Assembly: GCA_025617745.1 (NCBI GenBank)
Contig: CM046868.1
Location: 23,365,608-23,429,607, forward strand
DNA from: Heliocidaris erythrogramma
Taxonomy: Eukaryota > Echinodermata > Echinoidea > Camarodonta > Echinometridae
DNA: 64,000 bases
Reading direction: 5' to 3'
Shown here: positions 10,133-61,100 of the stretch, piece by piece
Numbering within the stretch: the first letter of the stretch is position 1
Layout: each line of letters begins with the position of its first letter
Program-made: the position numbers and the translations under genes
The notes under the pieces: model-generated
What the model saw: the letters and a program-made list of their open reading frames with translations, nothing else
Told to the model about the DNA's origin: nothing
The model's database searches: none

Positions 10133-10135
<3 letters not shown>

Positions 10136-10157
10136 TGTTGGTCATAAAGGTGGAATA
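10133..10157 (+). repeat. left terminal inverted repeat of the Tc1-type element
   Basis: Starts CACTGTTGGTCATAAAGGTG and pairs with 11775-11799 with two mismatches. It lies immediately after the TA target. Confidence 0.9.
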
Positions 10158-10314
10158 AAATATTTTTGAATAAAAATCGACAGTTTTGTTGGTATTTGAA
10201 AGGCTACGCGTAGACAAAATGGTAATTGAGTGATTACATAATGTTTCCCCATTACACAGGTGACATTATAACATGATAAATTTGGATTACGTAATAAATT
10301 CTTTTGTTGTAGAC

Positions 10315-10322
10315 TATAAAAG
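10315..10322 (+). promoter_or_regulatory. TATA box of the transposase gene
   Basis: TATAAAAG lies inside the transposon, about 120 bp before the preferred start codon and after the left terminal repeat. Placement and sequence fit a Pol II core promoter. Confidence 0.55.
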
Positions 10323-10440
10323 CCTATGCATATGATATTCTGTCCCTTTCCCTGTTTTAGCACTGTGTATAAGAAGGTTGCATTTTTTCGAGTTCCTTGT
10401 ACCGTTTGAAATAAAAATCGGTAGAGACGTTCGCTGGACT

Positions 10441-11463
10441 ATGCCTGGTCCAACGGCAACAGCAACACGCGAGAGAGTGGTAGCACTGCGACAGGAGGGC
10501 TACAAGCAGACTGATATCGCAGAAGTCCTAGGGATATCACAGAGTGCAGTCTCTAAGATCCTGAAACGTCAACGTGAGGCGGGGAATGTGCGGCCACGGA
10601 AATCTCCAGGACGTCCCAGAATGACCACAAGAAGAGATGATCGCCAACTGTTGAATTTCAGCCGCAGAAACCGGAAATTGCCCACGAGCCGTCTTCGTCG
10701 CTTGTGGAGGAGATATCATGGGATTAACGTTTCCCGGTCAACCGTTAATCGCAGATTGCTCCAACATGGTTACCGAGCACGACGGTTGACCAAATGTCCA
10801 CGCCTGTCTGTTCGCCACAGAGTAGCTCGTCTTCTTTGGGCTAGGGAGCACAGAAGGCTTCATCCAGGACATTGGCAACATGTGGTCTTCACGGACGAGA
10901 GCCGGTTCATCCTTGACCGAAAGGATGGGAGACAACGAGTTCGTCGATTAGCCGGGGAAAACCTTCGCGATGAATGTATCCACGAGACGACTCAAGGCGG
11001 AGGCGGCTCAGTGATGATATGGGCCGGCATCCATTATGGAGGGAAAACGCCACTGGTGGTTCCGGACGGAAACGTCAACGCCGCCGCCTACAGGGATATA
11101 TTGGAGTTCCACTGTCTTCCATATGCAAGACGAGTGTATGGGCACAATTTCCGACTGCAGGATGACAACGCTAGACCGCACAGGGCCGCTGCAGTCAGGG
11201 AATTCCTGGAGGCAGAGGGCGTCGTACAGTTGCCATGGCCAGCTTGTTCGCCGGATATGAACCCCATAGAGCATGTATGGGATGCCCTAGGCCGAGCCAT
11301 CAACGACAGAGAGGTCATTCCTCAAAATCTGCAGGAGTTGGCAGATGCTCTGAGGGAAGAATGGGACGCTATGCCTGTTGACGTCATCAACAAGCTAGTG
11401 GACAGCATGCCACGACGTCTGCATGCGCTGGTTCGTGCCAGGGGTGGACATACCCGATACTAG
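10441..11463 (+). CDS. Tc1-family transposase (DD34E), intact
   Basis: This encodes 340 residues, the usual Tc1 transposase length, from ATG at 10441. An in-frame upstream ATG at 10378 would add 21 residues (MHFFEFLVPFEIKIG...) with no family match, so the later start is preferred. The protein binds the element's own terminal repeats and catalyses cut-and-paste transposition in the nucleus. Residues about 10-50 form the first helix-turn-helix (TDIAEVLGISQSAVSKILKR). An AT-hook-like GRPR follows at 57-60, and a second HTH spans about 65-115. The RNase H-like catalytic domain shows D152 (FTDESRF), D242 (QDDNARPHRA) and E277 (MNPIEHVWD), with 34 residues between the last two. A glycine-rich GGGGSVMIWAG segment, typical of Tc1 proteins, is at 186-196. 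The codons are markedly more GC-rich than the surrounding DNA. There is no frameshift or internal stop. Confidence 0.95.
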   Translation: MPGPTATATRERVVALRQEGYKQTDIAEVLGISQSAVSKILKRQREAGNVRPRKSPGRPRMTTRRDDRQLLNFSRRNRKLPTSRLRRLWRRYHGINVSRSTVNRRLLQHGYRARRLTKCPRLSVRHRVARLLWAREHRRLHPGHWQHVVFTDESRFILDRKDGRQRVRRLAGENLRDECIHETTQGGGGSVMIWAGIHYGGKTPLVVPDGNVNAAAYRDILEFHCLPYARRVYGHNFRLQDDNARPHRAAAVREFLEAEGVVQLPWPACSPDMNPIEHVWDALGRAINDREVIPQNLQELADALREEWDAMPVDVINKLVDSMPRRLHALVRARGGHTRY

Positions 11464-11554
11464 TGACTGAGTAAGAACAATGACTCAAGTTTGATGCAAA
11501 TTTGTCCATGAAATCACAAAAAAGAAGTCATCTGGAAAACTGAGAGAGATTGAA

Positions 11555-11560
11555 AATAAA
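11555..11560 (+). terminator. polyadenylation signal AATAAA of the transposase gene
   Basis: AATAAA about 92 nt after the stop codon, inside the transposon. Another AATAAA lies near 11686. Confidence 0.5.
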
Positions 11561-11774
11561 TACTGTATCTCATGATCCTTTAATTTACTGTATATTTTCG
11601 TCATTGTTGTTCTATGCTCATGACATCCATCGCTTAGGACATAAACTTGTAAAATATCACTGTCAAACGTGTGTAAAAGGCAGAATAATAAAGTAAAGTG
11701 GTTATCATGCACCATAAATGCCATATTCAAATCATGTTGTAATAATTACGCTGTGAAAATTTGGTGAAAAAAAA

Positions 11775-11799
11775 TATTCCACATATATGACCAACAGTG
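11775..11799 (-). repeat. right terminal inverted repeat of the Tc1-type element
   Basis: Reverse complement reads CACTGTTGGTCATATATGTG, matching the left end. It is followed by TA. Confidence 0.9.
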
Positions 11800-12725: not shown

Positions 12726-12730
12726 AGACC

Positions 12731-12990
12731 CTGTAGAGCCCACAAATGTAAAAATCAACAACAAATGTAAAAACATTCCACCTGCAAATGTCAAAATAAC
12801 CACAAATGTCATAACATGTCAACCACAAGTGTAAAAATAACCACAAATGTAATAAAAATCTCCCACAATTGTAAAAATCTGTTTAACCAAAAATGTAAAA
12901 ACATTTCGCCTACAAATGTAAAAATTTCCATTTTTACCACAAATGTCATAACACGTCGACCGCAAATGTAAAATACTCATTGCTTGCAAA
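12731..12990 (+). repeat. outer arm domain of the foldback element (CACAAATGTAAAAA units)
   Basis: About 12 units of C(A/C/G)CAAATGTAAAAA or C(C/G)(A/G)CAAATGTCATAACA are spaced 15-35 bp apart. The order of unit variants mirrors the right arm: CTCCCACA, then GTTTAACCA, then CATTTCGCCTACAAAT, then CGACCGCAAATG. Confidence 0.85.
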
Positions 12991-13014
12991 TAATGCAAAT
13001 AATGCAGTTATTAT

Positions 13015-14005
13015 GGTAAATTGCCACTTTGTCTAATGCCAATTGGTTAAAAACTAAATGGTCCAACATTATTCGGTCTATTCGTCCATCACCAATTCGT
13101 CTAATATACATTTCGTCTAATAGCCATTTGGTCTAATAGTCAGTTTAATCACTTCGTCTAATCACCACTTCGTCTATAGCCAATTCGTCTAAAACCTATT
13201 TGGTTTAATACCCATGTGGTCTAAACTCATTTAGTCTAAACATCACTTGGTCTAAAAATCAGTTTGTCTAACGTTCACTTGGTCAAATCTATTTCGGCTA
13301 AAAACAATTGGTCTAATAACCAAATGGTCTAATCATCATTTCGTCTAATAGCCATTTTGTCTAAACCCAGTTGGTCTAACACCCACATCGTCTAATCATC
13401 ACTTCGTCTAATTACCATTTTTGCTAATCATTGTTTGGTCCAATTCTCAGTTCGTCTAATAGCAGTTTGGTTTAATGTTCACTTGGTCTAATATCCATTG
13501 GTCTAATACTACAGACAAACTTTAGCCTGTCACAGTTATATAGGTTTATTGCCACTTGGTCTACAGCCAGTTGGTCTAATAGTCAATTGGTCTAACATCA
13601 TTCCATCTAATATCAGTTGGTCTAATAACCAATTGGTCTTATCATCATTTCGTCCATTTACCATTTGGTCTAATTTTCACTTCGTCTAATTACCATTTTG
13701 TCTATAGTCAATTCGTCTAATGGCCATTTGGTCTAAAACCATTTGATCTAATAACCATTTGGTCCATTATCAATTGGTCTAATTGCCATTTCGTCTAATC
13801 AACAAATTGTCTAAACCCAGTTGGTCTAATACCCATGTGGTCTACACATCATTTGGTCCATTTGTCAGTTAGTCTAACCTCAGTTGGTCTATAATCATTT
13901 AGTCAACACTCATTTAGTCTAATAACCATTTGGTATAATTGTCATTTGGTCTAATTACCATTTGGTCTAATCATCATTTCGTCTAATGACCAATTGGGCC
14001 AATTT
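13015..14005 (+). repeat. inner satellite domain of the foldback element (GTCTAAT units)
   Basis: Around 50 degenerate ~19-bp units alternate between TTTGGTCTAATxxCCA and TTCGTCTAATxxCCA, with short variable joints. A break at about 13505-13540 (non-repeat, ending ATAGGTTTATTGCCACTTGG) divides it into two blocks. The second block begins the stretch that pairs with the right arm. Confidence 0.9.
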
Positions 14006-15194
14006 CTTGTTTTCCCTCTACAATACTACTCTAGGTGGCTTTGACTAAACAGGCCGAATTTTGCCGAAATTTTCGATTTTTTTTTGGCACTAATTGTATA
14101 TATGTTATTTTTTGGTTTGGGGGGGGGGGGGGGGTGGGGGAGTACAAAAAAGAGGAGAAAAGGGTGACCTGATCGAGCATGACATGAATTAATTACATGT
14201 GCTTAATTGATTATCTAGTGAATAAATTGATTAATCAATGAAATATGTTTAGTGAATTTTCAATTATTGTTTTAATGCACTTTGCTTTTGTTATATTGTT
14301 TTTATCCCTTCATTTCTTTCGCTATCTATATATATATATATAAAGCTTTATCCTTCTATAATTTCTCTCTCTTTCGTTATGTTATTCCTTGGTTTTATCC
14401 TTTCATTTTCCATATTTCCTTTAGTTGTGTTATTCATTAATTCCTTCTATCACCTCTTCCATCTTTCCATATGTTAATCTTTACATTATTTCTTTTATCA
14501 TTTTTCTCTTTCTCTCTTTATTCCTTGGTTTATCTTTCTATCATTTTGCCTATTTTGCATTATTCTTTCTTTTTATATTTTTTCTTCTGCTTTTCATCTC
14601 TAATTTCGTTATGTTATTTTTCTTCTTCTTCTTTCTTGTTTTTGTTTGGGGAGCGGGGGGGGGGGGGGGGGCTTGTTTACAATCTTCTCTTCCATCTTTC
14701 GCAATGGTTTTTTTTTATTCTTCTACCATTTCTCTCTCTCTCTCTCTCTTTCTCTATCTTTACGTTAGGCCTATGTCTTTATCCTTCCATCCCATTACTT
14801 GCAATCTTCCCTATTGCATTGTTATTCATTGATTTTTCTTCACGTCCGTCTTTCCTTATATACTCTTTATATTCATTCTTCCATCATCTCTCTCATTGTG
14901 CCATTCTGTTTCTATTCATTATTATCATCAATATAAATACATGTACTACAATGCAGGGAAATGGAACGTTTTTGGAAGTGGGGACTGACGCCTATCAACT
15001 ACACTTTTCAACATTTTGCGAGCGAGCGAAGCGAGCGGCCAAACATTATTACAATGTATATCTTTAAAATGTGATCTCTTAAAAAAATATATATATATTG
15101 TGCATAATCATTAAACAAAATTATATGAAACGTGTCTACTCAAAAAGTGAATGGGCTGCAGCCCCATCACCCCCACCCCAGCCCGGTTCCAAAA
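14006..15194. other. non-coding middle segment of the foldback element
   Basis: Contains a 16-nt poly-G run (14119-14134), a ~650-bp pyrimidine-rich strand-biased stretch (14270-14930) of TTTCTTC-type sequence with a 17-nt poly-G run at 14655-14671, and a GCGAGCGAAGCGAGCGG patch near 15020-15036 related to dispersed repeats elsewhere in the window. The long open frames in the pyrimidine tract are Phe/Leu/Ser-rich and reflect composition only. Confidence 0.6.
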
Positions 15195-15398
15195 TTGCCA
15201 AATAGACCAAATGGCCATTAGACGAATTGACTATAGACCAAATGGTAATTAGACGAAATGACAATTAGACCAACTGGTAATTGGACGAAATGATGATTAG
15301 GCCAATTGGTTATTGGACCAACTAATATTAGACCGAATAATGTTAGACCAATTGGCTATTAGACCAACTGGCTGTAGACCAAGTGGCAATAAACCCTT
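15195..15398 (-). repeat. right inner arm (inverted GTCTAAT units)
   Basis: Its reverse complement aligns collinearly with 13541-13735: GGTTTATTGCCACTTGGTCT, then ACAGCCAGTTGG, and on to CTATAGTCAATTCGTCTAAT. By eye the identity is well above what the shared unit alone would give. Confidence 0.85.
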
Positions 15399-15945
15399 TA
15401 TTTTTAATCAAAATAACAGCGTGCGTCGTATAGTGTAGGCCCTTTACATTTGTGTTATATTTGATTTCGGGCATTCAGGTTTCAGGCATTTCTCAACCAT
15501 TAAATATTTCATCATTAAAAATCGCGTGAATAAAAAAAGTAATATCATTACCATATCAGACATCTGGGCAATGCAATTTTTACATTTTATTGCCCGGCTT
15601 TAACAGGCTAACATAATTGTGGGCCGATAAATTGTGTATTGCGCTGTTTCGAAAGGCAATGGGATTTTGCGTGTTAATTAGCGGGCAATACATTTTATTT
15701 TTACAATGGTTTCGAGTTTGCTCTAGACGTCTGATTCTGTTAATAATAATGATATGGAATGGCTACTTTCGGGGGATACAACATTAATTGCCCTCACTAG
15801 AATCGTATTAGTTGCTGTTCTATGTAGAGATCGATGGATTATCTGAATTTTTCTTGCCATTGAAGTTTATGATCAGCTCCTCGACCCCCGTCTCTGTAAA
15901 CTGATCATAAAAGGGAAACCACTAGTAAACGACTAGTTTAATAAA
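15399..15945. other. unique spacer inside the right arm
   Basis: Non-repetitive DNA between the two inverted domains of the right arm. It has no counterpart in the left arm, so it may be an insertion or captured flanking DNA. No coding recognised. Confidence 0.5.
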
Positions 15946-16296
15946 TTTTTACATTTGCGGTTGACATGTTTTGACATATTTTGTGGTAAAGGGTGTTTCA
16001 ATATTTTCATGATTTTAATGGTCAGGAGAACCTCTCACACATGCATGCACGCGAACAAACACATACATCTCATAATAATCTTACATGGGTACATTATGCA
16101 AGCAATGAGTTTTTACATTTGCGGTCGACATGTTATGACATTTGTGGTAAAAATGGAAATTTTTATATTTGTAGGCGAAATGTTTTTACATTTGTGGTTA
16201 AACCAATTTTTACATTTGTGTGGGAGATTTTTATTAAATTTGCGGGTGCAATGTTTTTACATTTGTGGTCGATTTTTACATTTGTGGGCTCTACAG
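15946..16296 (-). repeat. right outer arm domain (inverted TTTTTACATTTG units)
   Basis: TTTTTACATTTG(T/C)GG units mirror the left arm; the best pairing runs from 16100 to 16296. One further unit at 15946-15990 is separated by ~110 bp of unrelated sequence. Confidence 0.85.
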
Positions 16297-16299
16297 ACC

Positions 16300-17215
16300 C
16301 CAGCCTCTGTCGTGCTCCCGACACATATCGCCCTAATCACTTATTTTACCACATAGTTGGCGCCTTTTTTGACAGCGATGTTGAGATGGTGATTTCAAAA
16401 GGCGGGCTTATAAGATGTCAACTGCATCAGAGGAGAAAACATGGATGGAAAACAGGAGACAACAGGAAGGAAAATCAAGGAGAATACCCTCGCAATGAGA
16501 AACAGTTTCCTCTTTATGTAGGATGACCTTCTTCACTCATTTTTTTCACTGCCTTTGGCCTAATCCGTGTCAGGACTAACCTAGCTGGCGCAGATCTTAG
16601 GGAGATCAATTACTCGAAACTCGTCACATTTGTCAGTCGTTCTATTCGTAAGCAGGCATTCAAATCAATTTCATTTAATGAAATTGCTTGGACGAACGTC
16701 ACAATAGCTGGATTAGTCCAGCTCAAGCCCCTATCCTCTATTCACGCAAGTGGCCCTCACTAATTTAAAAGAAAAATAATAAACCGACACACAAAATGTG
16801 ATATATCACAGCACGTCTCGACCAGCTAGCCAATATCGGTCCATTCAGGGTTCAGGTTGGGTAATCGATTTTAAAGTGACATTTTGATTGGGGGTTAATG
16901 AATGTGGGTTCTTGAAAAAGTTTCGAACATTTTCTTATACATTCAGACGATTGATTAGTATTAATGTTGAGATAACGAGTTGATTCTCGATCAATTGTTG
17001 TATTTGCTAGCTCCCTCAGTGTACTTAAGATGTACGATCGATATGCCATGACAAACTCAGCGAAAACATTAAGGTGAAAAACCTCTCGGTCTTGGTCCCA
17101 GTTTAAGCATCTGGAGAGGATTAATGCATTTCACTGTTATACACTAAACTTCTACATGGCTTTTCAGGTGAAAAGATTAAATCGACAGCGCTTGTGAAGT
17201 TAAAACCATGCTCCT
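16300..17215. other. unassigned, apparently single-copy DNA
   Basis: No repeat or gene recognised. The composition is less simple than that of the neighbours. Confidence 0.4.
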
Positions 17216-21553: not shown

Positions 21554-21955
21554 TAGTTCCTATTTACTACATAGTAAACCATTTCAGAATAACTTCTATA
21601 AGGTTCTTCCACAATGACAAGCACACAATATCATATTTAAATGTATGCATACTTCATGCAATCAATTGAGATATATTCTCTATACATTAAAGACATAGTA
21701 TAAGCTCAAATTGAAAACATGAAGACACGATGACTGACAATGACATTGTATCTGTTGATTTAAAGAAGATGTGTTTTGGGACTCCTATGACATTAACCAT
21801 TTAATCAATGGTAATGAAAATAGATCATGTACCATAATCACATATACTTCCAAACATGAAATTTTTATTTTAGAATTATGCTTTCACTTTCAGAATGTAT
21901 GAAGTATATGCTTTTATGTTTTTATGACAGTGTTCATGAAAGCATTCATAAAATA

Positions 21956-22167
21956 CAGCCATGGAAAAAAGTATTAGACCAAGCATGGTTACTGATAGTG
22001 TTATTTTTGTGGTAAGAAGGAAATAAAATTACATAAAAGCAAGGTATAATTGCTGGAATTTGGTATTCATTCAATGAAATACAAAGACGAATCATTTATA
22101 TAATTTTGTATGCATATTATGGTACCCATATTACAGAAGCTTGGACTAATAATTTTTTCCAGGGCTG
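21956..22167 (+). mobile_element. TA-flanked MITE 'CAGCC', copy 1
   Basis: Terminal inverted repeats of about 29 bp with three mismatches begin CAGCC(A/C)TGGAAAAAA and continue TATTAGACCAAGC. TA flanks each end. 212 bp and non-coding. Copy 2 (25080-25292) is in the opposite orientation, and a partial copy lies at 56951-57050. Confidence 0.85.
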
Positions 22168-22473
22168 TATATCGTCTATTCCAAGGTTTTTGTTAATTTC
22201 GTGTTTCATACGTAAACAATTATTGTGGCGTTATGGACATAACCTGACATTAATTGTGCTATCTCAATTTATATTTGGTTTCATCCAAGCTTTACAAGGG
22301 CTATTCACTTAACACAGTCATCAGATACCATTTTAGGTGTAGTCGGTAATTATTTTCCATCTTACTCTGGATGGTATCTCAAAACTATTACAACATTCGC
22401 AGGACAACATTTCGGGAACTTCCCAGTAAAGGACTAAAGACCCGCCGGCTTTGGTTTCATTAACGTGTTCCAT

Positions 22474-22515
22474 TGGCGTAGACAGGTCCCCATTACGGGG
22501 GGGGGGGGGGTGGGG
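22474..22515 (+). repeat. fragment of a TGGCGTAG-type repeat with poly-G
   Basis: CATTGGCGTAGACAGGTCCC followed by a poly-G run. Resembles the CAGTGGCGTA(T/G) modules at 48262, 49020 (inverted) and 56051. Confidence 0.45.
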
Positions 22516-22587
22516 GCTGATTCTCCTAAAGGCCATGAATGGATATATTTTTTTATATATGGGTGTGTGTGTGTGAGAGAGAGGGTA

Positions 22588-22640
<53 letters not shown>

Positions 22641-22648
22641 ATGTGTAT

Positions 22649-22840
22649 GCATCTTTTCAGATAATTAATATAATTAATATATATATATATATATTTCAGC
22701 CTTTGCAAAAATTCCAAAAAGGGAGGACAGCTCTGGGGAACTTTGATTTAAGTTACGCAACCATTATTCTCTCATTTCCTTTCGCATTGTATTTATTTCC
22801 ACGAGAGTTGCCAAAGCTGTTGTATATGTTATTTCCTTAC

Positions 22841-22886
<46 letters not shown>

Positions 22887-22902
22887 TTATCTGAAAAGAT
22901 GC
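22649..22902. mobile_element. inverted-repeat-bounded composite SINE-like element (family copy 3)
   Basis: Two perfect 21-bp inverted repeats (22649-22669, starting GCATCTTTTCAGATAATTAA; complement at 22882-22902) enclose (TA)n tracts and a core at 22694-22843. The core has the CCACGAGAGTTGCCAAAGCT module at 22799-22818. It also has the body module (GGGAGGACAGCTCTGGGGAA ... TACGCAACCATTATTCTCTC), but that is inverted relative to copies 1 and 2. So the modules of this family have been shuffled. Confidence 0.7.
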
Positions 22903-22904
22903 TT

Positions 22905-24165
22905 GGTACTATACTGAATCGGAAAATGGTGTTGAAGAGAGGCATACTTAAGCTTTTAGCCTTGCACTCATCATATTAATTATATTAATTAATTCTATAT
23001 ACCAAAGAAAATGTATTCATTAATATGAAAACGACAGAATTGTACATGAATATCCCCCTGAAAGCTGGGGGTGATGATTGTACACCCCCACTTGAAAAAG
23101 CATCCCCATCCCCCTGACGTGTTCAATATGTTATCACTTATAATCAGAAGTTTTTTTATGTTTTTGTTGGGGTTTTTGCTTTACAACTTTAGGATTTATG
23201 ATTATTTTTTGAATTGCTACTGATCTGTCAAAAATGGGGGGAAATTCTACGTAATTAGCTTTTTTTATTACTGTTATGCCACGCCGTCAGAATAAATCAC
23301 AAAGGAAAAAAAACTGACGTAGTTTTGTCATCATTTAATAAACACATACAACTTTCATGTGTCATACACACCAATGAATTTAAAAGATATAGCACACTAA
23401 ATTGATTTAATAGACATGTATTACATGTTACACGAGGTTGCAATTATTATCAAAGTTGTACTATTTAGAGCAGTACCTGTTCATGGTGATAGTACTTTCA
23501 TTCAGACACATAAATGAAAATAAGCATAATTTGAATACAATATGCTTTAAATGACTCCAATTAAAATGTTCAAGATGAAAAAGTATACAGGAGTGGCGTC
23601 GTCAACATATTTTTGTCAAACTCTTCACGCAGCAGTATTTAATGAGTGATATATGAACCTCGAGAGTTACTCTTTATTTATACTATATTTCTCACTTGAA
23701 TATTCAAACTCATATTTGGCATCAGTCACAATGAATCGGCTTCAGAATGGCTTTCTCTTCACTCTTCCTGCCATTAAAGTTATACTTCACATGTCACGCT
23801 TTGTACAATGCAATGTATATTATACGGGGACTCTGGAATTCTGGCTTTCAACAGGCGATATAACTGAACTCGTGTAAAAGATGTCCGTGGACACTTTATA
23901 ACCATTCTCCCGGCAGTAGTAATAAAAGCATTGACAAGATTTGCAATTTCCTTACAGTGTCCTATACCTCATGTAATTCCACATACACAATCTCTTTACT
24001 TATCTATAATATGTACTTTTAAAAAACGACGGTATACCACCGTATAGTTTATTTCACTGTTTTTTTCCATTTTCACTTAATTTCAAAGAAATCAAACGTT
24101 TATATGGAACATAGCAACTGGCATGAAATAAAGGAATTGAATATTTTTGACTACCAGGGATTTTT
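22905..24165. other. unassigned DNA
   Basis: No gene recognised. Confidence 0.45.
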
Positions 24166-24167
24166 TC

Positions 24168-24600
24168 TTAAAGGCCAAGTCCACCCTAATATCAAGTTGA
24201 TTTGAATAAATTGCAAATATATTTCAAATATTTCAATTTTTATAGATTTGATAATAAAGAATCCCTTCCTTGTATGAAAATAAGTTACAATAATGATGAT
24301 TTTACACGTTCCATGTGGAGTCAAACCATGTTTTACATTATTGAAGCAAAAAAATGAAATATATGATATTTCATATAATAGAATACATAAGGAAAAGTGA
24401 GTGCATGACATCATCGGTTCACTCATTTGCATGCCGCCCATGTTATGCATATCACTGTTTCATGAAATAATGCAAAACTTCAAAATGCCGTAACTTTCTT
24501 ATTTTACATCCGATTTAAATAATATTTTCACTGTTATGCTTGTTTAAATTAAATCTATTTATTCCAGTCAACTTGATATTAGGGTGGACTTGGCCTTTAA
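24168..24600. mobile_element. 433-bp MITE with TTAA ends
   Basis: Perfect inverted repeats of 33 bp, counting the TTAA, begin TTAAAGGCCAAGTCCACCCT and continue AATATCAAGTTGA; similarity then fades. The TTAA target suggests a piggyBac-type or similar mobilising transposase, which is inference. The open frame on the minus strand inside it has no recognised domain. Confidence 0.85.
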
Positions 24601-25079
24601 TCATCATTGACTAATTATATAATTTCAAGAATTTCTACATTTGTTTCTTTTCATCATGTGTACCTTATTGGAGATCGACATTTCATAAAATAAGTGATGC
24701 AAATTCGAACAGAATCAATTTCGCATATTAGTATAATCATATACGTCTCTTGCAGGAATGGTAAAATCTGTATACAAATTTCGAATCTTCAAGGGTATTT
24801 TTTTTCTTCCTTCCTTCTCTTTTTACCTATTATCTGTTGTTTAATCTCACACCTGTCCTATTCCAACATTTTCAGTAAGAAGACGTAATCAAAAATATTA
24901 TCATCTTCTTGATAAACTAAAAGGAAGTCCTGAGAAAGATATTTGGAGACTGATTTCTCAGTATTATTCCAAGATGAAAGAGGTAATGTTGTCAATTCTC
25001 TCAACACCTGTTCTTAAAAGGCAATGACATTTAACCGACTCCTAACTGATCAAGTAATATCAAGGGATCATAATATACA

Positions 25080-25292
25080 CAGCCCTGGAAAAAAATTATT
25101 AGACCAAGCTGCTGTAATAAAGGTACTATAATATGCATTCAAACTTATGAAAATGATTTGTCTTTCTATTTCATTGAATGAATAACAAATTCCAGCAATT
25201 GTACCTTGCTTTTATGATATTTTATTTTCTTCTTATCACAAATATAACACTCTCAGTAACAATTCTTGGTCTAATAATTTTTTCCATGGCTG
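25080..25292 (-). mobile_element. TA-flanked MITE 'CAGCC', copy 2
   Basis: Ends are CAGCCCTGGAAAAAAATTAT and the complement of ATAATTTTTTCCATGGCTG. The interior is the reverse complement of copy 1, including AAAGCAAGGTACAATTGCTG. 213 bp. Confidence 0.85.
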
Positions 25293-25294
25293 TA

Positions 25295-26830
25295 CATTCA
25301 CGATGCCACATCTTTATTTTGGAAATTTGTACATTTACTCATGTTACTTAGCACAGGGTTTTGTTTTTGATCATTTGGCCCTAGATCCCTTTCCCCTCTA
25401 TTAACAGGCTTCTTTCTATTTCCCTCTACAATATCGAAATGATTCAACTGCTTTGAAACAGCCATTTTCAATGATTATCTGACAGGAAAAGACAGCGAGA
25501 AACAATTAACTCCATGTTTCAGTGATGTCTGAAAAATATAACATTTCGGGGATTCCAAATATCAAATTCAGAATTTAGATCATCTATTAGTATTCATGGG
25601 ATATTATCAAACCACTTATGATCATTACAAATTCCACTTAAGCCAAAAACCATGTTTCAATCCAGAAAAAAAAATGTTATATTGGGTGTGAACAAAGCTC
25701 ATGGGATCAGAGATATCTTAATTGAATCAGGTTTGTAATTGCAAATCTAATCTTGATGATGATGAGTCTCAAAATTAAGGGATCATTAATATTCACTTCA
25801 TAAAATGATTGCTTTTCAACTGGCCAAAACCAAACTCAGATTTTATGTTTAGAAGGAAAAAAATGCCTAGCGAATTTAAAAAGTATTACGGATAGTTCTT
25901 CAAAAAAAAACATATCACTCATCTTGTATAGAATAGAAGAGATAACTTAAAGGTGCAAAATTGCTTATTATTAGCAATTTCCTGGTATCAACTGCTTACA
26001 ATCATCACCAAAGTGGATACACAATAAAATTGGAAAATACAAAAATCAGGTCTTTTTTCAAGAAATAGTTTAGAACGGAGTACCTTCTGGTGTCTCCTGA
26101 GTGATATTTACGATCTGCCAATAATTAGGTAAGGATTTATAATGACTGACTTCAGTAATGAGGAGGAATTAAGTGTATATTGGGGGAGGGGGAATGGTGG
26201 CTGACATTTTAATATGAAGGATATACACTGTAGTTACATTTATACATGATACATCAACATATACAGACAAATCATTTAACTGTGAATATCTTATAAACTA
26301 TCAATCTCCTCTGTTTTTCTTCTTCTGTTCTGTCCAAGATAACAATTTCTCACATTTTGTGAATTTGTGCTTTTAAATACCGTGTTTTTTGTGAATATGA
26401 GCTTCAATAATTATTTACACCAATTCGTTAACATCTATCTCCCTTCTTCCTTAGCATGCTTAGAGTTCTTGGAGTAGAAAAGTGTTTTTTTTTCCTTTCC
26501 ATTCAGGTATCAGAAAATGTGTACTCATGAAATGAGTGGTACCGGCATAACTTTCTCCAGTCTTGACGATACGAAGAAGAAAAAGGAGTTCTTTGATAAA
26601 TAACTGATTCTGTTTAACAGTTAATCAAAAGAGAATACAAGATGACCATTCATTCCGGCTGTGAAATAATGTTTGTTGAAAACATGGCTAGTTTTATGTA
26701 CACGGTGATAGGTGAAGTTTATAACGTGTATGGCAAGCGAACGGCACAGATCGAGCTTTTCAACATTTTCAAAAAGAAAGTTCAAAGTAAGCCCAGGTCC
26801 TGTTCTGGACTAGGCGCCATGTAATCAGGG
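25295..26830. other. 3' flank and probable 3' UTR of the NK1 gene
   Basis: Lies immediately downstream of the homeobox stop codon on the minus strand. A minus-strand AATAAA is present at 25313-25318 and an ATTAAA near 26207-26212; neither can be chosen from sequence alone. No other gene recognised. Confidence 0.4.
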
Positions 26831-27613
<783 letters not shown>

Positions 27614-47180: not shown

Positions 47181-49084
47181 GTGTCGATCCGTATTCACGA
47201 TTGGGGGGATGACCGGCGAGGGAGCGAAGCCAGGGCTTATCCAGGGATTATGGCGCCTGGTGAAAAAATATGAAGTTACGCCCCCCCCCCCCCCCGCCAC
47301 CGAGTGCCCAAACTTATCCACGTTAACGAGGGAGCAAAGCAACCGAGCGGCAAATTGTTCAATTTTTAACCCTAAAAAACGCAATTTCTTGTCTATTTTA
47401 CCCAGGAATTTGTTTTTATTATGCATTGATAAACGGTTTTCTATTCACTCATTACAATCGGGAGCAATACTAACGAAAACCCTATATAGGCTTGAGAAAG
47501 AGTCGAGATATTCAGCAAGGCTACCTAAAGTTGAGATTTCTTTGAAAAGTTGAACCAATATTTAGTAGGAGTCATAATTTTTATGGAACTTACATGATAT
47601 AGAGAACAAAGCAATTACATCTTATTTTTCCTTCAAATTTTGAACCCTTTAAGGCTATTTAAGAACCATATAGGCATACTGGGCGCGCGAAATTACGAGA
47701 TCTGGAAAGAAAATAATTATGCGACGGAGCAAAGCGACCGAGCTTTGGAAAATCTTCGCATTTCAAACCCTCAAAAACAATATTTCTAGTCTATTTACCC
47801 TGCGGATTCTTCATTTCCCTCTTTTTTCTTTCTCTCCTTTGCGTGTTTACGCCCCCTCCAAGTGCCGCCCAGGGCATGTGCCCCCTGCCCCCTAGATAGG
47901 CCACTGAGCGAAGGGTGTGGAAGGGGGTATCCCCCTCCCACACCAGGGACTTTTTCAAAAATCTGTCTGTAAACTTGCATTTTAGAGCATCCCAAAATGC
48001 TTGTTTTTTATGAAAAGAAGGAATGCACGGATCTACACCAATGGACGGAACACCTCAATTGAGAATGACAATGCGAGCGAACGAATTTTCTTCGATATTT
48101 CCGCATTGAAATTATGGCATTTCTTATTTCCTTACTTCTAATCATTAAAGAATTTGATGGTATTTCAAGATCAAACATAATGAGTTTTAAGTTAATGTAT
48201 CATAATTCTTATTTATTTCATCCAAAATATTGGGGGATGATAATACAGGCCATCCCCCTCCACCCAGTGGCGTATCTAGGGGGCAGGGCGGCACGTGCCC
48301 CGGGCGGCACTTGGAGGGGGTGCATAAAATTCAAAAAAGAAAGAAAAAAAAAGGGAAAATGAAGAAAAATCACAATGCTTAAGGATTATGCGCCCCCCCC
48401 CCCCAAATCGGTATAGGGTAAATGCATTAAAAATACAGTTTTTGAGGGTTCAAAATGCGAAAACTTTCTTTCAGTCTTTCAGGATCTCGTAATTTCGCGC
48501 CCCCAGTATATAGTTTTTTTAATGGCTTTTTTAAAATAGAGTTCAAAATTCCAAAATAAAGATGCAATTGTCGTTGCTTTGCTCGCTATCATGTAAGTTT
48601 CATCTGCCTCTTGCTAAGTATTGCACCCCAATCATGCCAATATAGGATAAAATGCATAAAACGGTATTTGCAGAGGTTCAACATTTAAAAGAAATCTCAA
48701 CTTCCAGTCGATTTGCTCAATTCCTCGACTATTTCTCAAAGGTTTTCGTTAATTATTTTGCTCCCAATTTTAGAATGGAGTGAATAGAAAACCGTTTATC
48801 AATGTACAAAATTCGAACTTGTCTACCGCATAGTTGCAGTGGTCAGTTGCAAAATTTCCTGGGTAAAATACGCAAGAAATTGTGCTTTTCAGGGTAAAAA
48901 ATTCAACAAAGTTGCCGCTTGGTCGCTTTGCTCCCTCGCTGTGCAATAACGTGGATAGGTTTGGGCACGGGGGGGGGGGGGCAACTTCTTTATTTGCCCC
49001 GGGCGCCATAATCCCTAGATACGCCACTGCCCGCACCTCAATTTCTTTTTTTATATACCACCATCCCTCCCCCGGGATCGACAC
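47181..49084. mobile_element. 1.9-kb foldback element
   Basis: The ends are perfect inverted GTGTCGATCC (47181-47190; complement at 49075-49084). The arms pair almost continuously: 47181-47915 with 48262-49084, diverged. Shared landmarks in mirrored order are GGGATTATGGCGCC, poly-C/G, CCCAAAC(T/C)TATCCACGTTA, GAGGGAGCAAAGC, TTACCCAGGAA, ACTTACATGATA, GCGCGAAATTACGAGATC, and the CTCCAAGTGCCGCCC / GGGCGGCACTTGGAG block. The ~345-bp centre (47916-48261) is unrelated and non-coding. No transposase. The arms contain the CAGTGGCGTATCTAGGG and AAAGCGACCGAGC motifs common in the dispersed repeats of this genome. Confidence 0.85.
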
Positions 49085-56290: not shown

Positions 56291-56930
56291 AGTGCTCCTT
56301 AACTAGGGGGCGGTACCTTGGATGGGGGCGTAATGTAATCCGGACAGCTTCCTAGACGAACTGAATTATTGACTTTTTTCCCCTCGACATTCAAACAGGA
56401 GGGGAGGGGGGGGGGGTCTTTGAAATACACTTTGAGCTGACAAGTTGCCTGAGCTAAAGCAGAGGTAAAACTTTCCAAATTATATAAGAATATGCTATAT
56501 ACCAAAAACGGAAATAATTTAGTTATTTTAGTTCAGTTTAGTCTTATATTTCCACAAGTCAATCAAAATACAAATCCTACATTCTGGAATAATAGAAATC
56601 GATTATATCATACAAGAATATGTACAATATGTTATGCTTGATTTTCTTTTTTTTTATAGAAGTTATAGTAGTTTTGAAGCATAACATATACTTGATTTAT
56701 TAATGACTTATTGCTGATTTCTGTTAATTTATGTATATATATATATATGTGTGTTGATTGTTATATATTGTTTTTGATATCATATGGAATCAATAAAAGA
56801 TTACTGAAAAACAAAAAAAAAGAACATACATCTCACAATAATACAAGAAAAAGAAAATAAGAAAGTAATTAAAAAAATTACATCCATGTCTAGTGAAGTA
56901 AGGCTTGTTGTGGATAGGCCCCGGATTGTA

Positions 56931-57136
56931 TACCGTGTGACTAAAAAAAAATTCCACCAATTGTACCTTGCTTTTATGATATTTTATTTCCTACCACAAA
57001 TATAACACTTGCAGTAACCATTTTTGGTGTAATAATATTTTCCATGGCTGTATGTATATTCATTTTGCGTTCATAACTGAGTTTTAAACAAACTAGAAAT
57101 TTTCTAAGTGTAGACTTTTTTTTTACTCACACGGTA
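56931..57136. mobile_element. MITE with TACCGTGTGA ends, containing a truncated second MITE
   Basis: Inverted ends TACCGTGTGACTAAAAAAAA (56931-56950) and the complement of TTTTTTTTACTCACACGGTA (57117-57136) differ at one position, besides poly-A length. The interior 56951-57050 is a 3' portion of the CAGCC-type MITE. Confidence 0.75.
56951..57050 (-). mobile_element. truncated 'CAGCC' MITE, copy 3
   Basis: Matches copy 2 from CCAxCAATTGTACCTTGCTT to the terminal TTTTCCATGGCTG. The other half is missing and is replaced by the outer MITE's A-rich end. Confidence 0.8.
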
Positions 57137-57233
57137 TTAGTATCAATCGCTTACAATTTAATACTGGTATACTGATTTTTCATCTTCTCCTTCTTTTTCC
57201 CCACTGCAATAATTATGTCGAAAATTGAGCAAG

Positions 57234-58064
57234 GTCCCTTAACTTTACATCACTTCCTTAATCACTCCCTTATTTTTACATCACTCCCTTTTATCACTCC
57301 CTTAACTTTACACTACTCCCTTTTATCACTCCCTTAACTTTACATCACTCCTTTTATCACTCCCTCAACTTTACATCACTCCCTTTATCACTCCCTTAAC
57401 TTTACATCACTCCCTTTTATCACTCCCTTAACTTTACATCACTCCCTTTTATCACTCCCTTAACTTTACACCACTCCCTTTTATCACTCCCTTAACTTTA
57501 CATCACTCCTTTTATCACTCCCTCAACTTTACATCACTCCCTTTATCACTCCCTTAACTTAACATCACTCCCTTTTATCACTCCCTTAACTTTACATCAC
57601 TCCCTTTTATCACTCCCTTAACTTTACATCACTCCCTTTTTTCACTCCCTTAACTTTACATCACTCCATTTTATCACTCCCTTAACTTTTCATCACTCCC
57701 TTTTATCACTCCCTTAACTTTACATCACCCCATTTTATCAGTCCCTTAACTTTTTATCACTCCCTTTTATCACTCCCTTAACTTTACATCACTCCATTTT
57801 ATCACTCCCTTAACTTTTTATCACTCTCTTTTATCACTCCCTTAACTTTACATCACTCCCTTTATCACTCCCTTAACTTTACATCACTCTTTTTCACTCC
57901 CTTAACTTTTCATCCCTCCCTTTTATCACTCCCTTAACTTTACATCACTCCATTTTATCTCCCCCTTTTATCACTCCCTTAACTTTTCATCACTCCCTTT
58001 TATCACTCCCTTAACTTTACATCACTCCCTTTTATCACTCCCTTAACTTTTCATCACTCTCTTT
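57234..58064 (+). repeat. 32-bp minisatellite, TCACTCCCTTAACTTTACA-type, ~26 units
   Basis: The unit reads TCACTCCCTTAACTTTACAT followed by CACTCCCTTTTA. Each unit holds two ATCACTCCCTT half-repeats. Variants (CCTCAAC, TTTTCATC, CCATTTTATC) recur. The combination CACTCCTTTTATCACTCCCT followed by CAAC appears at 57345 and again at 57503, about five units apart, so blocks of units were duplicated together. No spacer sequences and no reading frame of interest. Confidence 0.95.
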
Positions 58065-58069
58065 ATATC

Positions 58070-60635
58070 TTATTTCTTTGATCATGTTGAAAAACAATAT
58101 AGATTGAAAGTGTTTATGAGTAGTATACGAAGTGTCTAAATGCAAGCCAACTTAAGGTTAATTGAAATCAAAACTATTTTCCTTTGATATTCATTCTAGA
58201 CTAATTAAGCCATTTTTGGATATTGATTTCCGCGGATCGATAGCAGAAATCCCGAGGCAACTCGGCCGAGCGCATTTCCCCTCCTTTCATTCGCCCCACA
58301 TGCAAGGCTCGAGAAACAAAAGCCAATGACCCCTATAGAAGTACACAGTCATAACGACTTCAACCTGGATGAAACCTCAAAGACATAGACCATACTTTTA
58401 GCCAGTGAAGCACGTGGAAACAGGGGTCTGGTCGAGAAATAGAAAACCAATTTACTAGGTCGCCTTCCTTTGTATTTAAGAGAAGAAAACTGCGAAAGCT
58501 AACACCCGGCCGCGTTGTTGATTTTGTCTTCTGTATTTGATTATCACAACGAATCAATAGCCATATTTGGTGCTATTGTCAAGATATTTTACGCGTTTTT
58601 AATCCGACTATTACGCCTATTCATAATACCGTCTTTATGACCATTTCCGAAATATTGATCGCATCATTTTGGGTCAGCGCGCCCGTGCGGGTAGCATTGT
58701 TACACGCCAACAATACTGCCAAAAAGAACTTGCGGTTAGGTGCCGCTGGCGAACATCGTAGCAAGCGCACGAGCGCATTGGGGACCTTCCCTGGCTCGGC
58801 ACCCCGGGGGAGCTCCCGGGTTCGAGCGGCATTCGTTTGAGCCTCACCAAATATGACAATATCTCGACGGTTTAGGTGTTCAACAAGCCGGAAGAATTAT
58901 TAGCGACAAATAAAAAAAAAACTGATCAAGATCTCTGCAGGCCCTTTGATCTGCTATTTAAGTTGGATATCAATAACTCCCCAGATTTCTATATTTTGTA
59001 CTTAGTCAATAGTTCTGGCACCTTCCGACATATCCGACAAGACTTCTAAAAAGGCAAATCGGCATGATAATTACCTCAAAGCTATCACGCACATGAACCC
59101 CGCTGGATATACAACCAGCTATCATTCTACTTTGACGCCTTTTAATAAGAAAAATCTTGATTCCTTTGACATTTAATCGCCGTAAATGCAATCACAAATG
59201 ATTCCGACAGAGTTTGTCTCTTTTCGGCAACCCCAGACGTCAACTTGTATGTTTTCGACTGTGGGAAAATTAAACAAAATCATTATCTTGTTTGTTATAA
59301 CTGTCTTCTTGTCTTTATTCACTTGTACTTTTAGCTCGAGATGAACCCTGTGTTACAAAAAAAAAACAGGAACATTTTAATCCGTGCTACAAAGCCACCG
59401 CTGTAACCGATATGTTCTAAAGAAGCAAAAATGAAAGAAAAAGCGGCACGATTTCAAAAGAAAACAATGTTAATATTGACAATATTTACAGAGAAATGTA
59501 ATTTCATTCAAATCAAACATTTATTAATGACTCGGTTGAGCATATGGATTGCGACTGCCCTGCCGACAGAGAGATTTGCTAAATATTCCAGCTGCACAAA
59601 AGTTTTCCATCTATATACATAACATAGTAACAAAGAGGTCACATCTAACTAGGTCTTCGTGCTCTATAGGATGACGGGATTGAAATCATGACATAGTTGG
59701 TATTAACTTGAATTGGGGACGAAAATTGGGGAATACAAAAGTAACACATTCACTGATAACTTGAAATTATGAAATAATTATCATTGTTTCTGCTATACTC
59801 AGCATGCTCAATAGACATGATAGCTGTGTTTGAGTGCTTGTTGTTTATGGTGGGGTAAAGTAAAGCTTAACAACTGAGGTAGCATTTTAAAATGTTATTA
59901 CTGCAAAAATTCACGGGAAAACAAGTTAACAGGAAAAGTTTGGATAGCATGAATATTTTAAGAATATATACTCAGAAACGCCAATACTTGATTTTCATTA
60001 TACGAACTTAGTGTTTTAAAAATGTTTATGTGTAATTAAGCAAGAAAGTATGACAGTTTCTTTCTTTTGTAAAAATTAGGGCAGCATTGTTATTCGAACA
60101 TTTTTCGTTACTCTAACTACGCCGGAGTTAGAAATCATGACATTTTGCTGTCCTTATGATATCAGATATCTCGATGTATTTATACACATGACATTTGATA
60201 CTGTACGGAGAGAGAAATCCTATATTACTATCAAGACTTGGCTTGCATTATAATAGTGAAAATCCCTTTGTGTCAAGGTATATCATTTTTGTAAAGAAAA
60301 GCACCTCCTTTGTTTGATTTTTATCTGACGAAGATAGTAAATTATAAATAAGAAAGCAAGTCATTATGAATTGATTGGTAGAGGTAGGAGATTTCAACAT
60401 AAATCAAGTATCATTTCGTGTAACTTTCCTATTGTCAAAGAAACAATGTTGTTTTATTTCCATGTTGTCCTATATTATCTTTACGCAGAAATAATCCATT
60501 AAATTTGAAGAAAGTCCAGAGTGACTTTTTCTACTCTGTTTCTTTTATTCACTGCATCCAATGCAAAGTCTGAATAGGGAAAATTGCAGTGATAATCACT
60601 TAGGAGCTATAAGTTCGTTATTGTGCTTTACACGG
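58070..60635. other. unassigned DNA
   Basis: No gene recognised. 58240-58330 and 58660-58850 are locally GC-rich and complex, with CCCGGGGGAGCTCCCGGG (58803-58820), a short palindrome. Possible regulatory DNA; unproven. Confidence 0.4.
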
Positions 60636-60642
60636 GGGTTAC

Positions 60643-60890
60643 CTCGCTAGTCATAAGGACCGCTATTCATGCGGACCGCTATCCATAACGCGTGACTAAA
60701 TGAATAGCGGTTTTGTATGAATAGCGGTCCTTCTAACTAGCGAGCAAACCATAGACAATTAACTCGCTATTCATAAAGAACTCCATTCATAAGGACCACT
60801 ATTCATACCTATTCATAAGGACCGCTATTCATAACGCGTATTAAATGAATAGCGGATTTCTACGAATAGCGGCTCCTTATGAATAGCGAG
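60643..60890. mobile_element. pair of tandem palindromes with ATTCATAAGGACCGCTATTC units
   Basis: The first palindrome (60643-60744) has arms CTCGCTAGTCATAAGGACCG and the complement of CGGTCCTTCTAACTAGCGAG. The second (60763-60890) has arms CTCGCTATTCATAA and TTATGAATAGCGAG. Both carry internal AAGGACCGCTATTCATAACG and ATGAATAGCGG repeats and an ACGCGT centre. A compound MITE or foldback element; non-coding. Confidence 0.8.
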
Positions 60891-61100
60891 CTGACCCGCT
60901 TTACACCATTTGATCAAACAGAAATTACAAGTCATATCTGCTACTACTTGGAGACACACGGGTACAATAGGCTGATGAAATGATCCCGACTCCTCCTTAC
61001 TTCAACAGAGGACTAAAAAACCTCTACCTATCCCTAATCCTTACCCTAAACATAACTTCAAACCCAATCGCATCCTTCACCCTATGTAAATCCCATTTCT

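Follow-up and report, generated by a model that had tools for sequence, protein, structure and literature searches.

We describe, in the genome of Heliocidaris erythrogramma, what is probably (at a probability of roughly 0.8) one insertion of a non-autonomous foldback-type DNA transposon that was moved in trans. The element lies in a window of 64,000 nt, which is the whole stretch of DNA analysed here (GCA_025617745.1, CM046868.1, 23,365,608-23,429,607, forward strand), spans about 3,564 bp at window positions 12732-16295 and has the ends TGTAGAGCC...GGCTCTACA. Inverted arms built from satellites had been predicted at this place, and they were recovered by sequence reading, self-BLAST, an inverted-repeat scan and a comparison of tiles. 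In the latter, the window was divided into 34 overlapping 3.6-kb tiles with the low-complexity filter on, and its strongest inverted repeat was that of the element's tile (290 bits vs 179 bits for the next). Both arms consist of two unrelated degenerate tandem repeats, an outer and an inner one, arranged in mirrored order and each with one privileged register of matching. The terminal inverted repeat (TIR), the target-site duplication, these composite repeat arms and 36 reading frames free of transposase domains together support the foldback-type, non-autonomous nature that the original prediction had proposed. From left to right, the features are:

12727-12731, + strand: left target-site duplication, GACCC; if read asymmetrically, AGACCC beginning at 12726
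12732-12756, + strand: left terminal inverted repeat, perfect over 25 bp, starting with TGTAG (self-BLAST, end-pair scan)
12741-12985, + strand: left outer satellite, 11 units of CACAAATGTAAAAA type at a spacing of 18-27 bp (loose unit scan, tandem-repeat scan)
13028-13510, + strand: left inner satellite, block 1, TTSGTCTAAT in 15/16-bp units (unit scan)
13511-13542, + strand: short non-satellite interruption between the inner blocks (sequence reading, unit list)
13543-14004, + strand: left inner satellite, block 2, mirrored on the right at 93% over its first 193 bp
14006-15202, no strand: middle domain, with no transposase domain
15203-15395, - strand: right inner satellite with 12 units, corresponding to 13543-13735 in inverted form
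15396-16090, no strand: right-arm spacer of about 695 bp, absent from the left arm, with a piece of outer satellite at 15940-15990
16100-16286, - strand: right outer satellite with 8 units, their order mirrored (loose unit scan)
16271-16295, - strand: right terminal inverted repeat, perfect over 25 bp (self-BLAST, end-pair scan)
16296-16300, + strand: right target-site duplication, GACCC; if read asymmetrically, AGACCC beginning at 16295

The limits of the element were set by an end-pair scan, which covered positions around both ends and duplications of 3-10 bp. It returned a single best solution with mirrored ends, 12732-16295, bounded by the perfect 25-bp TIR TGTAGAGCCCACAAATGTAAAAATC and flanked on both sides by an exact GACCC. 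In an asymmetric alternative (12732-16294), the duplication becomes the 6-bp AGACCC and the ends are no longer mirrored, so that the length of the duplication is ambiguous, 5 bp or, asymmetrically, 6 bp. The place given in the original prediction is correct, but its limits, 12731-16296, include one duplication base per side, because the first and last letters of GACCC are complementary and lengthen the apparent TIR to 26 bp. For the same region, ACC had been put forward as the candidate duplication; it sits inside GACCC and is better read as the longer word. The ends had also been described as perfect inverted copies, which is true of the outermost 25 bp (26 bp in the earlier bounds), whereas longer matched stretches are 86-93% identical. 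When random flanks of fixed base composition were simulated, a duplication of at least 5 bp at any of four symmetric offsets arose in 0.6% of them; given that the duplication is short, a chance origin is not negligible. A target duplication at the ends of inverted arms is a mark of foldback elements and is present here in one copy; being exact and located at the ends of the TIR, it supports insertion, though not overwhelmingly. The evidence for mobility as a whole comes from one insertion: neither self-BLAST nor an end-pattern scan detected a second copy within the 64-kb window, where the 25-bp TIR had no match at 0-6 mismatches beyond the two ends.

The correspondence between the arms is specific to one register in both satellites. 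In the outer satellite, the 120 bp at 12854-12973 are 92% identical to the inverted right arm, against 52% in the next-best ungapped register, which bears out the predicted mirrored order of variants; the outer arms differ by a K2P distance of 0.088. In the inner satellite, for which mirroring had been predicted over the second block only, it is indeed the first 193 bp of block 2 (13543-13735) that match the inverted right arm, at 93% and with a K2P of 0.071, whereas the next ungapped register reaches 62%; in gapped alignment by self-BLAST, values rise to about 75% in other inner registers, as a tandem repeat would predict. The proposal that the inner unit comes in two flavours likewise agrees with the data: one unit position is mainly G or C, and the base at this position, counted by eye from the unit list, is the same in 10 of 12 homologous units, including three C units common to both sides. 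Since a tandem repeat alone gives no privileged register, the arms appear to share descent as inverted copies or to have been homogenised. A rival account without any mobile element, in which two satellite arrays arose independently and face in opposite directions, would explain why both domains are tandem repeats and why the window holds a single copy. However, such arrays would not be expected to share a variant order in one register, nor to terminate together in a perfect 25-bp TIR flanked by a duplication, and we consider this explanation very improbable.

Under the favoured reading of a foldback insertion, the two arms have had unequal histories. The unit scan matched 61 inner units in the left arm and 13 in the right, with a spacing of mostly 16 or 15 bp; a small number of these are borderline, and 12 right units remain once the first, which lies outside the array, is set aside. 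The right inner domain is about one fifth of the left, making the arms very unequal. The two left inner blocks are about 70% alike over 502 bp, block 1 being a diverged tandem duplicate of block 2 that the original prediction had not noted, and the word TTGCCACTT opens both left inner blocks as well as the right inner block; given this common start of the three blocks, the block duplication looks older than the separation of the arms or their last homogenisation. The spacer of the right arm had been described as 550 bp long and unique. It measures about 695 bp, and its segment 15940-15990 matches the outer satellite (86% over 51 bp, E 4e-10, self-BLAST). This BLAST-supported piece is the only one kept, because matches of the loose unit scan are at background level (213 and 189 on the strands of the window), and extra outer units at 15590 and 15454 were rejected on these grounds. 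Within the middle domain, positions 14275-14925 are 75% pyrimidine with two G-runs. Unmasked self-BLAST aligned 115 bp of the pyrimidine-rich part at 70% (E 8e-9); a third, decayed repeat in this part was considered but is not claimed, the autocorrelation z of 5.2 being above the 95th percentile of the shuffles (4.8) and below their maximum (6.6). Single-strand folding of the satellite units is weak (z -1.7 to -2.1). Elsewhere in the window (57235-58069), about 26 well-conserved copies of a 32-bp unit form a tandem array that is unlike both satellites of the element in sequence.

In line with the original prediction, no transposase domain was found inside the element. All 36 stop-to-stop frames of at least 45 aa that overlap it were compared with Pfam, and none of the 36 contains a transposase or integrase domain, the search covering the MULE transposase and the Gypsy-like integrase, both of which a non-autonomous copy would lack anyway. 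Pfam gave two weak matches below the cut-offs, one with TssN and one with a plant cysteine-rich domain, both of them unrelated domains, and the window has no Rfam match at gathering thresholds. In a viral collection, neither the 18-base end pattern nor the inner-unit pattern had any match. The end pattern was found 4 times in bacterial genomes, against about 7 matches expected by a rough estimate for 257 billion bases and two strands, and the outer-unit 20-mer occurred once in each of two viral contigs; we take these bacterial and viral matches as chance. The repeat words were also searched for in the literature, where the papers among the matches listed look unrelated by their titles and the starts of their abstracts, most subscription papers lying outside the search.

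The window holds several other features. A Tc1/mariner-like element at 10133-11799 has both inverted ends (CACTGTTGGTCATA) adjoining TA repeats and contains transposase domains within a stop-to-stop frame of 375 codons; its transposase (10336-11463) was rejected as the mobiliser of the foldback element, since the ends of its own element differ, CACTGTTGGTC, and adjoin TA repeats. An inverted pair at 21954-25294 was considered as a sister element and rejected, because it looks like two separate, oppositely oriented Tc1/mariner-like miniature elements (about 21954-22169 and 25077-25295). The ten letters TTGGTCTAAT occur both in the inner unit and in their Tc1-like ends, which we take as coincidence. 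Nested, decayed inverted repeats at 47234-49025 (outer pair 70% over 373 bp, inner pair 82% over 113 bp) are perhaps an old long-TIR element, and a 208-bp stretch at 56930-57137 with 28-nt inverted ends, 89% complementary, is possibly a miniature transposon. On the minus strand, an open frame at 26831-27613 contains a homeodomain (Pfam), presumably NK1-like.

The TU elements of the sea urchin Strongylocentrotus purpuratus have a tandem-repeat outer domain in their inverted arms, a variable middle and an 8-bp duplication. The present element resembles them in the layout of its arms and middle but differs in its duplication of 5 or 6 bp, and a relation to TU elements is not favoured. Other foldback-like elements offer further comparisons, within the portions of the published descriptions drawn on here. 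Tetris of Drosophila virilis is likewise apparently non-autonomous, with long multi-domain TIRs that carry tandem repeats and a non-coding middle, of variable size in Tetris; it differs in having a unit of about 220 bp and duplications of 8-10 bp, whereas the arms of the present element are made of two short-unit repeats (PMC4079207). The Mutator/foldback element Tm1 of root-knot nematodes also has composite TIRs, with four domains and a redundant motif of about 14 bp, and the mean identity between the paired TIRs of an element is 93%, a likeness to the present arms; unlike the present element, Tm1 has duplications of 8-10 bp, mostly 9 bp, in 45 of 53 elements, and asymmetric terminal motifs outside the inverted repeat (PMC3169594). 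Galileo, of the P superfamily, shares the long, internally repetitive TIRs, but its transposase is known, whereas the 36 frames of the present element contain no such enzyme (PMC3688188). The second satellite domain, which the original prediction regarded as perhaps new, is present; given the multi-domain, repeat-bearing arms described for Tetris and Tm1 (PMC4079207, PMC3169594), it amounts to a modest difference. By analogy with these two foldbacks, the composite tandem-repeat arms count in favour of the foldback reading. Against it stand the single copy, the very unequal arms, the short and ambiguous duplication and the more diverged tips: the outermost 69 bp of the arms, compared ungapped, have a K2P of 0.126, above that of the inner parts, so that the arms are not equally alike along their whole length.

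The length of a target duplication reflects the stagger of the cuts made by the mobilising enzyme. The 5-bp (or 6-bp) duplication and the terminal TGTAG, in one copy, lead us to lean towards an integrase-type enzyme, and within the foldback reading an enzyme of the Gypsy-integrase/Ginger type, as opposed to a Mutator type, can be proposed tentatively. TGTNR termini are described for Ginger1, Ginger2 and most Gypsy LTR elements (PMC2836005), and TGTAG at both mirrored ends fits this motif. Ginger1 and Ginger2 further resemble the element in their duplications of 4-5 bp (PMC2836005); by group, duplications are given as 4 bp for Ginger1 and animal Ginger2, 5 bp for TDD-4/TDD-5 and 6 bp for GingerRoot and Polinton, a range that includes 5 or 6 bp (PMC2836005, PMC10045372). 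However, GACCC fits neither the CCGG/CCGT target of Ginger1 nor the RTATAY target of Ginger2, and the TIRs of both are not described as satellite arrays in the parts of the source consulted (PMC2836005). Moreover, TGTNR is a short motif, seen here in one copy, and the gene for the enzyme was not found in the 36 frames.

A foldback of Mutator (MULE) type, with a true duplication that is either decayed or exceptionally short, is doubtful. Most foldbacks have been assigned to Mutator, with duplications mostly of 9 bp in Tm1 and of 8-10 bp in Tetris (PMC3169594, PMC4079207), and IS256 and MuDR together are given duplications of 4-10 bp (PMC10045372). The window itself contains a 264-bp element at 60634-60897 with inverted ends of CGCTATTCATAAGGAC-type repeats and an exact 9-bp duplication, GCTTTACAC (60625-60633 and 60898-60906), as expected for a Mutator-type miniature element. 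On the other hand, Mutator-like duplications are put at 8-11 bp (PMC6446971), whereas the end-pair scan, over 3-10 bp, found 5 bp at the mirrored ends. The 9 bases beside the two ends of the foldback element, TGAAGACCC and GACCCCAGC, do not match as a 9-bp duplication.

Transib ends in general start with CAC. The RAG-like transposon AanRAGL makes a 5-bp duplication, as would suit an element of Transib/RAG-like type here, and its ends, too, are described as beginning with CAC (PMC9435367). The present element, however, begins with TGTAGAG, its first CACAAATG lying 9 bp inside the end, and we regard this origin as quite improbable.

For one insertion of a foldback-type transposon moved in trans, the following course can be envisaged. 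A DDE enzyme encoded elsewhere would cut at TGT...ACA, and the ends would be joined to nicks staggered by about 5 bp. For the DNA-binding domain of the enzyme, the repeated outer units, perhaps together with the inner ones, may provide multiple binding sites. In Galileo, the tandem repeats carry binding sites for the THAP domain of the transposase, which binds them in vitro (PMC3688188); by this analogy, a binding role of the subrepeats is reasonable here, and plausible. The arms would have originated by inverted duplication, or become alike by later homogenisation, and unequal gain and loss of repeats would then have doubled the left inner block, cut the right one to 193 bp and left a spacer on the right only. 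The fuller proposal, of a foldback family moved by a Ginger/Gypsy-like integrase-type enzyme with the two arm satellites serving as two sets of binding sites for the enzyme or host factors, is rather unlikely as a whole.

Most likely, the element is a foldback-type transposon of familiar architecture, with a hint of an unusual enzyme in its end letters and short duplication. Should the 5-bp duplication and TGT...ACA recur in other copies, this would mean an origin of the foldback architecture in a further lineage of enzymes, and the element could serve as a natural substrate for asking why repeat arrays build up at the ends of transposons; if they do not, it would be one more foldback. Either way, short satellites are carried and mirrored inside an apparent mobile element.
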